Shown piece after piece: positions 3,064-20,623 of a stretch of 64,000 nucleotides of DNA. The stretch is from Candidatus Eremiobacterota bacterium. Lineage in GTDB: Bacteria; Vulcanimicrobiota; Vulcanimicrobiia; Vulcanimicrobiales; Vulcanimicrobiaceae. The stretch is from NCBI GenBank assembly GCA_019240525.1, contig JAFAYE010000001.1, positions 2,267,300-2,331,299 on the forward strand, read 5' to 3'. Position 1 is the stretch's first letter, and each line of letters begins with the position of its first letter. The notes under the pieces were generated by a model. The model saw only the letters and a list, made by a program, of their open reading frames with translations, was not told the origin of the DNA and did not search any database. Position numbers and translations under genes: made by a program.

Positions 3064-4023
3064 CTAGCGTGCGCCGACACTAACGGTTACGCCGCTGAAG
3101 AGGTCCTCGCTCGACGAGCTAATGGCTTTGATCGGTTTGCCCCCCTGTGGGTAGTTCCAGAAGAGCAGCGCTCCTTTACGATCAACTCGCCCCGACCCGA
3201 CAATCACGTTGCTGTGCGTCCAGTATTGATCGAACCCGAATGCTCCGAAGGCGCTCTGAAGTTGGATGGGGGCTTCGACTTTGCCCGTGTCGCCGGAAAC
3301 CGCCACCGGATATATCGAGACGGCGCCGGTGTGCTTAAACGTAGCCGCGCCAATCAGCAAGCGATTCTTCACCCACTGAATGCTCCTCGCCCAAATCGGC
3401 TGCGAAGTTTTAAGCAGCTCCAACTTCGTGCCGCCCTTGGGAAGCCGCACGAGAAAAGGCAATCCGTGCCAGGTCTCTCCCGAGGCGTACAAGTTACCGC
3501 TCTCGTCGTATGCGCAATACAAGAATTCTGCAGTGTTCTTGAATCGGGATGTCTTCGGCTTTTGCGATCCGCTGTGAAAGACGACGACGTCGCCGTTCCC
3601 CGCAGAATCGTGTAAGTTCGTGACCGCAAGATCACCGGTTGTCGGATCCACGGCGCACCCGCTCTGCGAACTATCCGGGTCGCTGAAGCTCTGAATGGGA
3701 CTGGTTCCTCCGTGCGCGTACTCGTAAATAAAGCCGCTGTCCGTTGTGACGTAGACATTCCCAGAGGCATCCGAGCAGAGTCCCTCGGGGTTCGTAATCC
3801 CGGTTAACTCGCTCACTTTCTGCCCGCTCGGAAATGCAAAGACCGAGACCGTGCCGGCCGAAGAACGCGACGCGTAGAGCAAGTCAGATTGCGTCGCGGC
3901 TGCGGAAGTTTGCGACGTCGGGTTCGTCGCGCCGGTTGGCGAAGCCGATCCACCGCACGCAGTCAGAAACGCCGCAGCGGTAGTGATGCTAACTACGCAA
4001 TGAAATGTAGCTAAAGTTCTCAT
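3064..4023 (-). CDS. Predicted beta-propeller lipoprotein
   Basis: A 319-residue exported lipoprotein with signal peptide and lipobox (LTAC, then GGSAS). A Ser/Thr-rich linker precedes strands such as LLYASRSSAGTVSVF and GNVYVTTDSGFIYEY, which are propeller-like. A strong GGGAGGGTG ribosome site sits 6 bases before the ATG at 4021-4023. It is a distant paralogue of the gene at 8619-9620: both have the order GDLAV, GDVVVF/GDIVVF, YDExGNL, then an LPKGGTK/LPQGSTK element. No enzymatic motif is visible. It is divergent from the gene at 4123. Confidence 0.75.
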   Translation of the reverse strand: MRTLATFHCVVSITTAAAFLTACGGSASPTGATNPTSQTSAAATQSDLLYASRSSAGTVSVFAFPSGQKVSELTGITNPEGLCSDASGNVYVTTDSGFIYEYAHGGTSPIQSFSDPDSSQSGCAVDPTTGDLAVTNLHDSAGNGDVVVFHSGSQKPKTSRFKNTAEFLYCAYDESGNLYASGETWHGLPFLVRLPKGGTKLELLKTSQPIWARSIQWVKNRLLIGAATFKHTGAVSIYPVAVSGDTGKVEAPIQLQSAFGAFGFDQYWTHSNVIVGSGRVDRKGALLFWNYPQGGKPIKAISSSSEDLFSGVTVSVGAR

Positions 4024-4122
4024 GCATCACCCTCCCGTGAGGTGAAACGTATTTTGCCCTTTGAGCTTCGCCGCGGCGCGGGTTGGTCCTAGCCGTAGGC
4101 TCGTCGGCGGGAGCCCGCGAAC

Positions 4123-5664
4123 TTGAGGCGCCGAGTGCGGATCGCGGGTAACATCATCGTCCAGCGATTGATAATGGTCGTTGTTCTTCCGGTTGCGGCC
4201 TGCGCGCGGGTTGCCGCGCCCGTCTCTTCGCTACCGGCATATCACGCCGTGAGCGTTGTCGTCGACCGAAGTGCCGTTCCATGCACGGTAAGCTACGACG
4301 GAGTGATTTGGTACCGCATCCCGGCCGGCGATTTTCCACCCGTCGCTGTGCGCTGGTCGAAGTGCGGCTTCAACGCTTTAGGTAGAAATCTGTCTCCGAA
4401 TCGTCCGCATTGGTCGATACCATCCGCAACAACGCAGACGCGCTTCGTCTTTACCGCTCTCGACGAAGTGATCGCGGTCAAGGGTGTACATGAGATCGAA
4501 CGAACGGCCGCCGCGCACCATGTGCCGGTATCTTGGATGGTGGGCGATATTCGTCACATGGCCTATGCCGCTGACTTCAACGCGTTTCACCGCGCTAACG
4601 GCGACGATGCCCAGGCACAGTTCTGGGGTGATCTGCATGTCGCAATGTCGGCGAAGCTTCCGTGGTACGTTCCCACCGTAAGCATTCTAACGGCCGGCGT
4701 GGAGCGCAACGTGCGGCGCGCTCTATCATTTGGCGAGCACGCGTTCTGGGGAATCACCTGGAATAGCCGTGGTACCGACGGAACATCCGACTTCGGGGCG
4801 CCATGGGGTACGTACTGTGCCGACATCCATTCGTACAAGCGGCCGCAGCCGGATGGGGGTTGTTCCTTCCTCGCCTTCGAGTGGACGGCACGTGATTTGA
4901 CGCGCGCCTACCTGAGCGAGCGTGAAGCGGCCTTTTCTACCGACCCCGATGACCTATTGCAGCGTGGTGGTTTTTCGCCGAAAACCGCCGCCCTCTATGC
5001 GCGGAAACTTGTGGATGCATACGCCGCGGCCGGCCAGACTCAGCCGATTGTCATGACCGTGCAGGAAGAGCCGGTTGACGCGGTTATTGCGGCCAACGCG
5101 GTCGTCATGAACGCGTTGTTCGATGAGGCCGTACGTGACGGAATGCATCTTGAAACGCTAAGCCAGGCAGCTAGCGATGCGCGGACGTTCTCAGCTGCGC
5201 CGCGCGCGGTTGCATTCCCGTATATAATTGGAGGCAGGGCTTTTGAGTCACGCTTGCTCCACGGCGAGACGCTGTATCCAGCGACGATCGACTACCACGA
5301 CTCCCGCGCCGGTATGACATTTCTTTCGGGGCACACGTTGCCCAGCCGTCTGTTTCGATACGCGGATTATCCCGTCTCGCGCTTCAATCGCCCGCTTCCC
5401 GAAGTGCCTCAGCGAGAAATGCCGGTGCTCTTGGGCGCGACCGTTAAGGATGGGTGGTTTACATTGAGGTTCGCCGCGCCGCAAGCACTGCGTTTCGGAG
5501 TGGCGATCTGGAGCGATCCCTCGCAACCAAAAATCGTCGGTCCCGGGAGAATCAGCGCCGGACGCGCCGCCACCGTTTTGGTCTTTGACCTTAAGCCCGG
5601 CACGAACGACGTGCGCTATCGTTGTAGCGCCTGTCGTAGTTCCACGTTTACGTACTCCCTGTAA
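4123..5664 (+). CDS. Exported protein of unknown function, possibly a deacetylase-type barrel
   Basis: A 513-residue protein. Starting at TTG 4123, with GGGAG 9 bases upstream, gives a basic n-region (MRRRVR), a hydrophobic core and a lipobox-like PVAAC at about residue 27; starting at the internal ATG 4174 would leave too short a signal. The mature part has stretches such as FVFTALDEV, VSWMVGDI, YVPTVSIL and AFWGITWNSRG that alternate strand and helix in a way resembling NodB-like deacetylase or glycoside hydrolase barrels, followed by a C-terminal beta-rich region. I cannot identify the metal-binding triad, so the enzyme class is a guess. Paired cysteines near the C-terminus (YRCSACRS) suggest an extracytoplasmic location. 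Confidence 0.6.
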   Translation: MRRRVRIAGNIIVQRLIMVVVLPVAACARVAAPVSSLPAYHAVSVVVDRSAVPCTVSYDGVIWYRIPAGDFPPVAVRWSKCGFNALGRNLSPNRPHWSIPSATTQTRFVFTALDEVIAVKGVHEIERTAAAHHVPVSWMVGDIRHMAYAADFNAFHRANGDDAQAQFWGDLHVAMSAKLPWYVPTVSILTAGVERNVRRALSFGEHAFWGITWNSRGTDGTSDFGAPWGTYCADIHSYKRPQPDGGCSFLAFEWTARDLTRAYLSEREAAFSTDPDDLLQRGGFSPKTAALYARKLVDAYAAAGQTQPIVMTVQEEPVDAVIAANAVVMNALFDEAVRDGMHLETLSQAASDARTFSAAPRAVAFPYIIGGRAFESRLLHGETLYPATIDYHDSRAGMTFLSGHTLPSRLFRYADYPVSRFNRPLPEVPQREMPVLLGATVKDGWFTLRFAAPQALRFGVAIWSDPSQPKIVGPGRISAGRAATVLVFDLKPGTNDVRYRCSACRSSTFTYSL

Positions 5665-18423: not shown

Positions 18424-19428
18424 CTAGTAGAGCGGCTGCGGCTCGTCCTCAATCGGCGATGGGATGGGGCCGAGTATCGGGCTTGGCATTGGCACGCCGA
18501 TCGGTTCAGGACTCGGCGGAATCGGCTCTGGCGTAGGCAGCCCCGGAGGCGGTCCTGGGATGGGGCCTGAGACCGAACCGTGGCGGCGTTCGTAACCGTT
18601 GACGAGTGTCCCGCCGAGGTCGACGTCGTGCGCCGTGACCTCGACGTTGACGCCTTTGCCTTCGGGCGTGAGCGTCGACTCGATACGCCCTCCGTTTCCG
18701 TTCTGCGCGGAGACGAGGAGCGAGCCATTTTGTTCGTATGTTACCGCCTCGCCGTTGCCCAGCTGCAACGTTTGTCCCTTGGCGATCGGGATCGAGTCTC
18801 CATAACTGTCGATCGTCGCGTCGCCGTTATTGTTCATGCTGACGGTGGTCGCGCCATTGTTCAGCGTGACCGTCGCTTTTTGGTTCCACGTGACTCCGTT
18901 GGAGTTGGGCGGCGTAACTTGCGTCGAGATGCGAAAGCCGCCGGCAAAAGAATTCGAATTGAGCAGATCGGGCTGGGACGTCATGTTGTTCCATTTTGCG
19001 CCGTTGAAGGATAGGTGTGGATCGCCCTCGCTCGAGCCATTTGCATTTTGGAAGAATCGCTCGTTGCCGTAGGGCGGGCACCCCGAACCATTTGCCGGAC
19101 AGGGGGTGGGGCCGTTGGGCGGACAGTTGCCCGATCCGTAGGGAGGGTTACAGCCATAACCCATGAGCGACTGCAGCATCTGCATCAGTTGCTGCAGGAT
19201 GCTCATCAGCGGTCCGAGCGCGCTTTGCGTGGATCCCCAACCGCCGTTGCCTCCGCCAAACTGCGGCATGGTGCTGCTTTCGCTGCTCATCCAAGGCGGA
19301 ACGAAGCGCGAAATATTGTCGCCCGTGGCCGGCGCGGAGCCTTGAAAGGTGCCCTCCGCTTGAGTATTGAGGGCCGGCGATCCGAGTGGATTTGAATTGA
19401 TGGCGCTCTCGAGCGGTTGTACGTACAT
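18424..19428 (-). CDS. GDPH-motif protein (DUF1521-like) with proline-rich tail
   Basis: A 334-residue protein. ATG 19426-19428 follows an exact GGAGG site and gives a mature start without a classical signal peptide. The N-terminal third is low-complexity, including a hydrophobic helix (ILQQLMQMLQSLM) and a cysteine/proline/glycine-rich segment. From residue 135 comes GDPHLSFNG followed by beta-rich repeated strands (VSMNNNGDATI, VTYEQNGSLLVS, VTAHDVDLGG), and the last 40 residues are proline-rich. The GDPH box is the site of calcium-dependent Asp-Pro cleavage in DUF1521/NopE proteins and of acid cleavage in mucin VWD domains; the likeness is motif-level, so similar processing here is inference. 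It may be exported by a non-Sec route. Confidence 0.6.
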   Translation of the reverse strand: MYVQPLESAINSNPLGSPALNTQAEGTFQGSAPATGDNISRFVPPWMSSESSTMPQFGGGNGGWGSTQSALGPLMSILQQLMQMLQSLMGYGCNPPYGSGNCPPNGPTPCPANGSGCPPYGNERFFQNANGSSEGDPHLSFNGAKWNNMTSQPDLLNSNSFAGGFRISTQVTPPNSNGVTWNQKATVTLNNGATTVSMNNNGDATIDSYGDSIPIAKGQTLQLGNGEAVTYEQNGSLLVSAQNGNGGRIESTLTPEGKGVNVEVTAHDVDLGGTLVNGYERRHGSVSGPIPGPPPGLPTPEPIPPSPEPIGVPMPSPILGPIPSPIEDEPQPLY

Positions 19429-19521
19429 AATAAACCTCCGTCGTCGTAAGTGCGCGTCCATCACGACGATCTCGGCGGCCGACAAGGGAGCGCCGGCGCC
19501 GCGGAAAAACCGGGTGCAAGC

Positions 19522-20623
19522 ATGAGCGAAACGCAGATAGCCGCAGTTAGCCGCCTCGAAGAACGCCTCGACGCACTCAAGGAGCGGCTTTGACGACGTA
19601 GGCAAGCGCCGGCGAATAGCCGAGCTGGACGAGCGTTCGCGCGCTCAGGAGTTTTGGAGCGACCCGGAAGCGGCGCAACGTGTCATGAAAGAATTGGCCG
19701 AACTGCGGGATCAAGCGGCCTCGTTCGACGGTGTGGCCGAGATGCTCGGCGATGCACGCGAACTCCTCGCCCTCTTCACCGACGATCCCGCGGCCGAACG
19801 AGAAGCCGATAGCGGTATCGCATCCGCTACGGAAGCCATCGAGCGCCTCGAGATGGCGGCGAGCTTCAGCGGTGAATTCGATGCGCGCAACGCGATCGTC
19901 AGCATCTTCGCGGGCGCCGGCGGCGTCGACGCCGCCGACTGGACGGCGATGCTCGCGCGCATGTACGTGCGCTGGGCCGAATCGAACGGCTATCAAACCC
20001 AGATCGTCGAGGAGTCCGCGGCCGAAGAAGCGGGCCTAAAATCGATCACATTTTTCGTACGCGGGCGCAACGCGTACGGAATGCTCGAAAGCGAGCGCGG
20101 CGTGCATCGTTTGGTGCGTCTGTCGCCCTTCGATGCCGCGCATCGGCGGCATACGTCATTCGCCGCCGTCGACATCATCCCCGAAGTCGAGGAGGGCGAT
20201 GCAGCCGACGTGGAGCTCAAACCCGACGATTTGCGAATCGAAACGTTTAAATCAGGGGGCGCGGGCGGCCAGTACGTCAACAAAACGGAGTCCGCGGTGC
20301 GCGTCGTCCATCTTCCGACGGGCATCGTCGTTGCCTCGCAGCAAGAGCGTTCGCAGGCTCAAAATCGCGACGTCGCATTCAAGATCCTTCGCGCGAAGCT
20401 GGCGGTGCGGGCTGCCGAGGAGCGCGATCAAAAGCTTGCCGATTTACGCGGCGAGCGTCAAGCGAATGAATGGGGATCGCAAATTCGTTCCTACGTGCTT
20501 CAGCCGTACCAACTCGTCAAGGATCACCGAACGGGAGTGGAAACCGCGAACGTCGGTGAAGTGCTCGACGGTACCATCGATACCTTTATCTGGCCCTACT
20601 TGCAACAACGGGAGCCTTCGTGA
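19522..20623 (+). CDS. prfB: Peptide chain release factor 2, programmed +1 frameshift
   Basis: RF2 terminates translation at UGA and UAA. The frame from ATG 19522 reaches TGA at codon 24 (19591-19593); shifting +1 at the CTT-TGA-C site continues into the large frame to 20623, giving 366 residues, which is normal for RF2. The GGQ catalytic motif (KSGGAGGQYVNKTESA) is present, as is the FWSDPEAA segment at the start of the N-terminal domain, encoded in the shifted frame before the internal ATG at 19685. Beginning at 19685 would lose part of that domain. It is followed by OsmC with a 4-base overlap. RF2 abundance should regulate its own frameshifting. Confidence 0.93.
19579..19594 (+). promoter_or_regulatory. 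prfB: prfB programmed frameshift signal
   Basis: AAGGAG at 19579-19584, a CGG spacer, CTT at 19588-19590 and TGA C at 19591-19594. This is the arrangement found in E. coli prfB, where an internal Shine-Dalgarno-like site three bases before CTT stimulates slippage onto the following UUU frame. Slow UGA decoding when RF2 is scarce favours the shift. Confidence 0.9.

Follow-up and report, generated by a model that had tools for sequence, protein, structure and literature searches.

The closest described systems are VWD domains of animal proteins that cut themselves at a GDPH sequence and bacterial DUF1521 (MIIA) proteins that carry the same four residues. In domain D10 of FCGBP, self-cleavage takes place at the sequence G4079-D4080-P4081-H4082, located between strands 1 and 2; it is abolished in the mutants D4080A, D4080N, and H4082N, and mutants at the Asp or the His still fold (PMC10880436). 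RGMB is likewise cleaved at GDPH. The MIIA domain is defined by folding and cleavage that are induced by calcium (PMC6506597). The window analyzed here, a stretch of 64,000 nucleotides from the 2.8 Mb genome of a Candidatus Eremiobacterota bacterium, encodes a GDPH protein that can be compared with both groups.

The gene for this protein of 334 amino acids is present in a single copy in the genome and occupies positions 18424-19428 of the minus strand (ATG at 19428, stop codon included and ending at 18424), with a Shine-Dalgarno-like GGAGG (19435-19439, minus strand) 6 bases upstream of the ATG. Translation of this open reading frame places GDPHLSFNG at residues 135-143, exactly where the initial annotation had put it. 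That annotation had further described a low-complexity N-terminal third, a beta-rich domain after the motif, and the absence of a classical signal peptide, all of which hold: approximately 125 residues at the N-terminus are rich in G, P, S, N, and Q and include 7 charged residues, structure prediction yields a beta-rich domain at about residues 124-277, and inspection by eye shows no signal peptide of the Sec type. The N-terminal arm (residues 1-125; 19054-19428, minus strand) is predicted to be disordered save for one helix. It contains the motif DNISRFVPPW (residues 37-46; 19291-19320, minus strand), recognizable by eye in most of the sequences, and the amphipathic Met/Leu/Gln-rich segment LGPLMSILQQLMQMLQSLMGY (residues 71-91; 19156-19218, minus strand; hydrophobic moment 0.56), with a predicted helix at residues 73-86. 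The predicted VWD-fold domain (about residues 124-277; 18598-19059, minus strand), delimited by AlphaFold2 models and structure comparison, includes the GDPH at residues 135-138 (19015-19026, minus strand), where self-cleavage is predicted between Asp136 and Pro137. A variable Pro-rich C-terminal tail (residues 278-334; 18427-18597, minus strand) follows, with pLDDT mostly below 50 in the full-length model. The protein has no sequence match beyond chance in Pfam, NCBIfam, PHROGs, or the PDB, and none of the named protein families covers it, including those listed for its 68 homologs. A match to Gp5/VgrG (E 0.0025) was rejected as reflecting a repetitive beta stretch.

A protein search (E<=1) finds relatives in 83 of the 99 genomes of the host's bacterial family, and a domain profile finds them in 78 of the 99, so that the GDPH protein is spread across about 80% of the genomes of one family of uncultured soil bacteria. 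In the sister families f2 and f3, no genome has a relative by the domain profile, and a search of viral contigs and plasmids likewise returned no relative. Two distant relatives (L109 and L110) are found in large genomes from other families of the phylum; both keep GDPH and are clearly homologous to the domain in the window (hhalign 98.7%, 2e-16). One of them (L110:5132-6277, plus strand) has an N-terminal repeat region rich in Gly (GFGMPMGFSGLDGWG...), which recurs in the same genome in another protein (L141:7973-9106, plus strand), which stands in a cluster of unannotated genes.

In the window, prfB starts 93 bases from the GDPH gene on the opposite strand, and this divergent arrangement is found in most family members. 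The only conserved neighbors are prfB and, farther along the same side, a DUF2079 membrane gene; on the downstream side of the GDPH gene, no gene is common to the loci of the relatives. The prfB gene itself (19522-20623, plus strand) displays the classical programmed frameshift, with 23 codons, an in-frame TGA at 19591-19593 (CTT TGA C), and then the main frame. Among 70 loci examined, the GDPH gene is broken in one (genome G018), where a stop falls right after GDPHLSFNG (L112 around 3710-4105, L113 around 3657-4163), leaving the motif on the N-terminal piece and the remainder of the domain in its own open frame 113 kb away. This break may be due to a rearrangement or a misassembly.

Across 68 aligned domains with a mean pairwise identity of 46%, none of the four residues G, D, P, and H varies. 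They form the sole run of four invariant columns, an outcome reached by 0.07% of column shuffles, and the further invariant columns comprise an M, an L, an N, and three other Gly. Since the codons at the four positions differ synonymously among relatives, the conservation acts at the protein level. Judged from these alignments, the GDPH motif is more than a chance occurrence.

The predicted fold connects the domain to a known class. An AlphaFold2 model of the domain (residues 114-291, from an alignment of nine sequences) reached a pTM of 0.67, with pLDDT of 83-92 in the core. When this model was compared with the PDB by VIA-align, the top 25 rows were all VWD chains (Z from 11.0, for VWF, to 6.8), and the first unrelated protein after this block scored Z 4.8. 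The full-length AlphaFold2 model matched MUC5AC at Z 12.6, with an rmsd of 2.8 A across 130 residues; nearly all of its top 30 rows were VWD chains, the exception by name being a green pigment protein from an insect, at Z 8.4. Below these rows, Z fell to 4.2. Matches of the two models include VWF, mucins, FCGBP, RGMB, and Cypridina luciferase. Foldseek placed the same VWD chains on top, but with a modest E of about 0.006 and never below 0.001. The predicted fold thus supports the resemblance to mucin VWD domains raised by the initial annotation, since two models retrieve VWD domains far above all else and the similarity extends well past four residues; on the strength of these models, the domain very probably adopts a VWD fold. 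At the level of sequence, the window protein has no match to the PF00094 profile at E<=10, its genome has no match, the phylum has no true match, and PF00094 is absent from the families listed for the 68 homologs. Comparison of the window family with VWD by hhalign gave a score of 20.3, within a GDPH-keeping null distribution with a mean of 17.3 and a 95th percentile of 22.3. The conserved cysteines and disulfides of animal VWD domains are absent as well, with no Cys in residues 126-277 of the window protein and a mean of 0.5 per domain among relatives. The domain model places GDPH after strand 1 and before strand 2 (E13-19 and E25-29), and the row for FCGBP begins with model residue 23 (Asp) against residue 4081 (the FCGBP Pro), i.e., within one residue. 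At the N-terminal edge around GDPH, pLDDT drops to about 40-55, and the full-length model lacks the strand at residues 126-132. The exact register of GDPH is consistent with that of animal VWD domains in the domain model and stays tentative in view of the full-length model.

The conservation of the motif, the predicted fold, and a genus that encodes the arm alone together suggest that the protein is a VWD-fold module that probably cuts itself at Asp136-Pro137, parting a disordered arm with its amphipathic helix from a beta-sandwich. Folding of the beta-sandwich would strain the GDPH turn near the N-terminal edge until the turn cuts itself: the side chain of Asp136 would attack the carbonyl of the same residue, and the bond to Pro137 would break, as in FCGBP and the RGM proteins. 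With no cysteine in the domain to hold it, the arm would afterwards be attached only through its final beta-strand (about residues 126-132), and the product could be either a nicked two-chain protein that stays bound or an arm that is set free; the trigger and the release, like the cut, are predictions. The main rival to self-cleavage is a purely structural role, in which the GDPH turn of a VWD-fold domain is kept because folding requires it and the chain stays intact. Conservation by itself fits either role, there are several further invariant columns, and where no Cys holds the first strand, cutting might merely cost stability. However, among PDB chains the uncut VWDs of VWF and mucins often carry GSFH, GGAH, GDGH, or GSGH at the site of the motif, and FCGBP still folds when its Asp or His is mutated (PMC10880436). 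A requirement for folding alone should therefore leave Asp and Pro free to vary in some relatives. That the VWD fold tolerates loss of Asp-Pro, whereas all relatives here retain it, suggests cutting as the selected trait, and a purely structural role appears rather unlikely.

The two halves of the protein can also be considered apart. Three genomes of genus g35 carry, at the locus next to prfB, a gene for an arm-only protein of about 126-132 amino acids (L136:3927-4322, plus strand, and minus-strand frames of L137 and L138) in which the GDPH domain is absent and the MYVQP or MYIQP start, the DGVSSM-PW motif, and the helix are kept. The arm can therefore serve by itself, and the halves can work apart. 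The initial annotation had proposed that cleavage would separate the arm from the domain; that they are distinct parts is indirectly supported by the g35 proteins and by a distant relative with a different N-terminal module in common with a DUF1521 protein, while their separation by a cut retains the status of a prediction. It might even be that the arm is the working part, an amphipathic, surface-active or self-assembling peptide presumably resembling harpins, and the domain a detachable keeper. The strongly amphipathic character of the Met/Leu/Gln helix and the arm-only genes at the same locus agree with such a role, but the arm has no Pfam match and most of the family keeps both halves; the proposal, which is compatible with self-cleavage, is accordingly regarded as doubtful.

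Membership in the DUF1521/NopE (MIIA) class, whose cleavage box the initial annotation had seen in the motif, would imply a domain that is disordered inside the cell and undergoes folding, calcium binding, and self-cleavage only after type III export, once outside or within a host cell. The identical GDPH, the low-complexity arm without a signal peptide, and the occurrence in a DUF1521 protein (L122) of the N-terminal module of the distant relative L109/L115 speak for this assignment, the first ~100 residues of the two being common (43% identity, 2e-17). In that relative (L115:1501-2307, minus strand) the module precedes a GDPH/VWD-like domain, and in the other protein (L122:1291-2115, minus strand) it precedes DUF1521. 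The profile comparisons nonetheless argue against membership. Neither the window protein nor its genome has a match to the DUF1521 profile (PF07481) at E<=10, and DUF1521 is missing from the families listed for the 68 homologs, whereas the profile does find true members in large genomes of the same phylum, and all of the DUF1521 proteins fetched from the phylum carry GDPH. The hhalign comparison with the window family is weak (25% over 20 columns) and pairs a stretch outside the GDPH register, with a score of 29.8 near the top of the null distribution (maximum 29.9). In addition, 8.6% of the residues of the window domain are acidic, compared with 42 of 171 in the MIIA domain of VIC_001052 (PMC6506597). 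Regarding export, the host genome has a FliP/FliR/FlhB/FlhA gate and flagellin only as a subthreshold match, and such a gate would allow a type III route for the GDPH protein. However, the presence of the gene shows no association with FHIPEP across genomes (8 of 11 genomes without FHIPEP retain it; Fisher p 0.7), so that co-occurrence does not predict export through a flagellar-type gate; no T3SS genes adjoin the GDPH gene. Taken together, membership in this class appears improbable.

Several observations on export systems were made alongside. The genome with the subthreshold flagellin carries a FliP/FliR/FlhB/FlhA/FliMN/rod gene set (L134; G000:C1:2084000-2103000). Genomes of the family that bear flagellin often have two types of FHIPEP, one of them divergent (E about 1e-190), which suggests a second, non-flagellar export system. 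Several larger genomes of the phylum (5-8 Mb; G103, G109, G112, and G132-G140) contain four to nine FHIPEP genes each, apparently corresponding to several type III systems per genome, and DUF1521 proteins are found in most of them.

A more distant relationship is suggested by the comparison of a DUF1521 profile built from Eremiobacterota proteins (L121-L130, alignment A5) with an animal VWD profile, for which hhalign gave a score of 30.8 against a maximum of 24.3 in a null that kept GDPH. This likeness reaches beyond the motif, and DUF1521 may itself be a divergent VWD. In combination with the single N-terminal module found ahead of both bacterial domains, the score allows the tentative proposal, less probable than self-cleavage itself, that DUF1521, the Eremiobacterota domain, and the animal VWD are branches of one VWD-fold superfamily in which GDPH self-cleavage is ancestral. 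Bacteria would then use an interchangeable 'cut here' module behind varied arms, and mucins and RGMs would use the same trick.

If the self-cleavage reading is true, the cysteine-free and probably easily expressed bacterial VWD would allow work on GDPH self-cleavage that needs neither disulfides nor a secretory pathway, opening the GDPH mechanism of mucins, FCGBP, and RGMs to study in a bacterial domain. A fold would also be suggested for DUF1521, a family without a known structure in the papers considered here, and a nearly universal, unannotated protein of an uncultured bacterial family would gain a name. Amongst the described systems, DUF1521/MIIA proteins (e.g., NopE1, NopE2, and VIC_001052) resemble the window protein in having GDPH and a low-complexity N-terminal arm, and they have one N-terminal module in common with a GDPH-domain relative in the wider phylum. 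The window domain differs from them in lacking a profile match, the (W)GDPH...LxDGT pattern, and any sequence sign of calcium sites, and in being less acidic. VWD domains have been reported in bacteria as well, in the myxobacterial prok-SAA proteins (PMC12419801, 2025); in the parts of that report considered here, a recognized vWD forms part of secreted multi-domain proteins that also have a zincin peptidase, and GDPH is not discussed, whereas the window domain stands alone behind a disordered arm. The GDPH-cleaving VWDs of animals (FCGBP, RGMB/RGMC, MUC2, MUC5AC, and BMPER) are like the window domain in predicted fold, and their GDPH lies at the first two strands as it does in the domain model; self-cleavage at Asp-Pro is a possible further likeness. 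In contrast to them, the window protein is bacterial, has no significant sequence similarity, no cysteines, and no C8 or TIL domains, and no signal peptide was seen. Animal secreted proteins described in PMC10880436 come close in another respect, having an unannotated VWD-like beta-sandwich with GDPH between the first two strands, as in the domain model. Compared with the GDPH-cut VWDs already known from animals, what is new is an unannotated bacterial domain with a predicted VWD-like fold.
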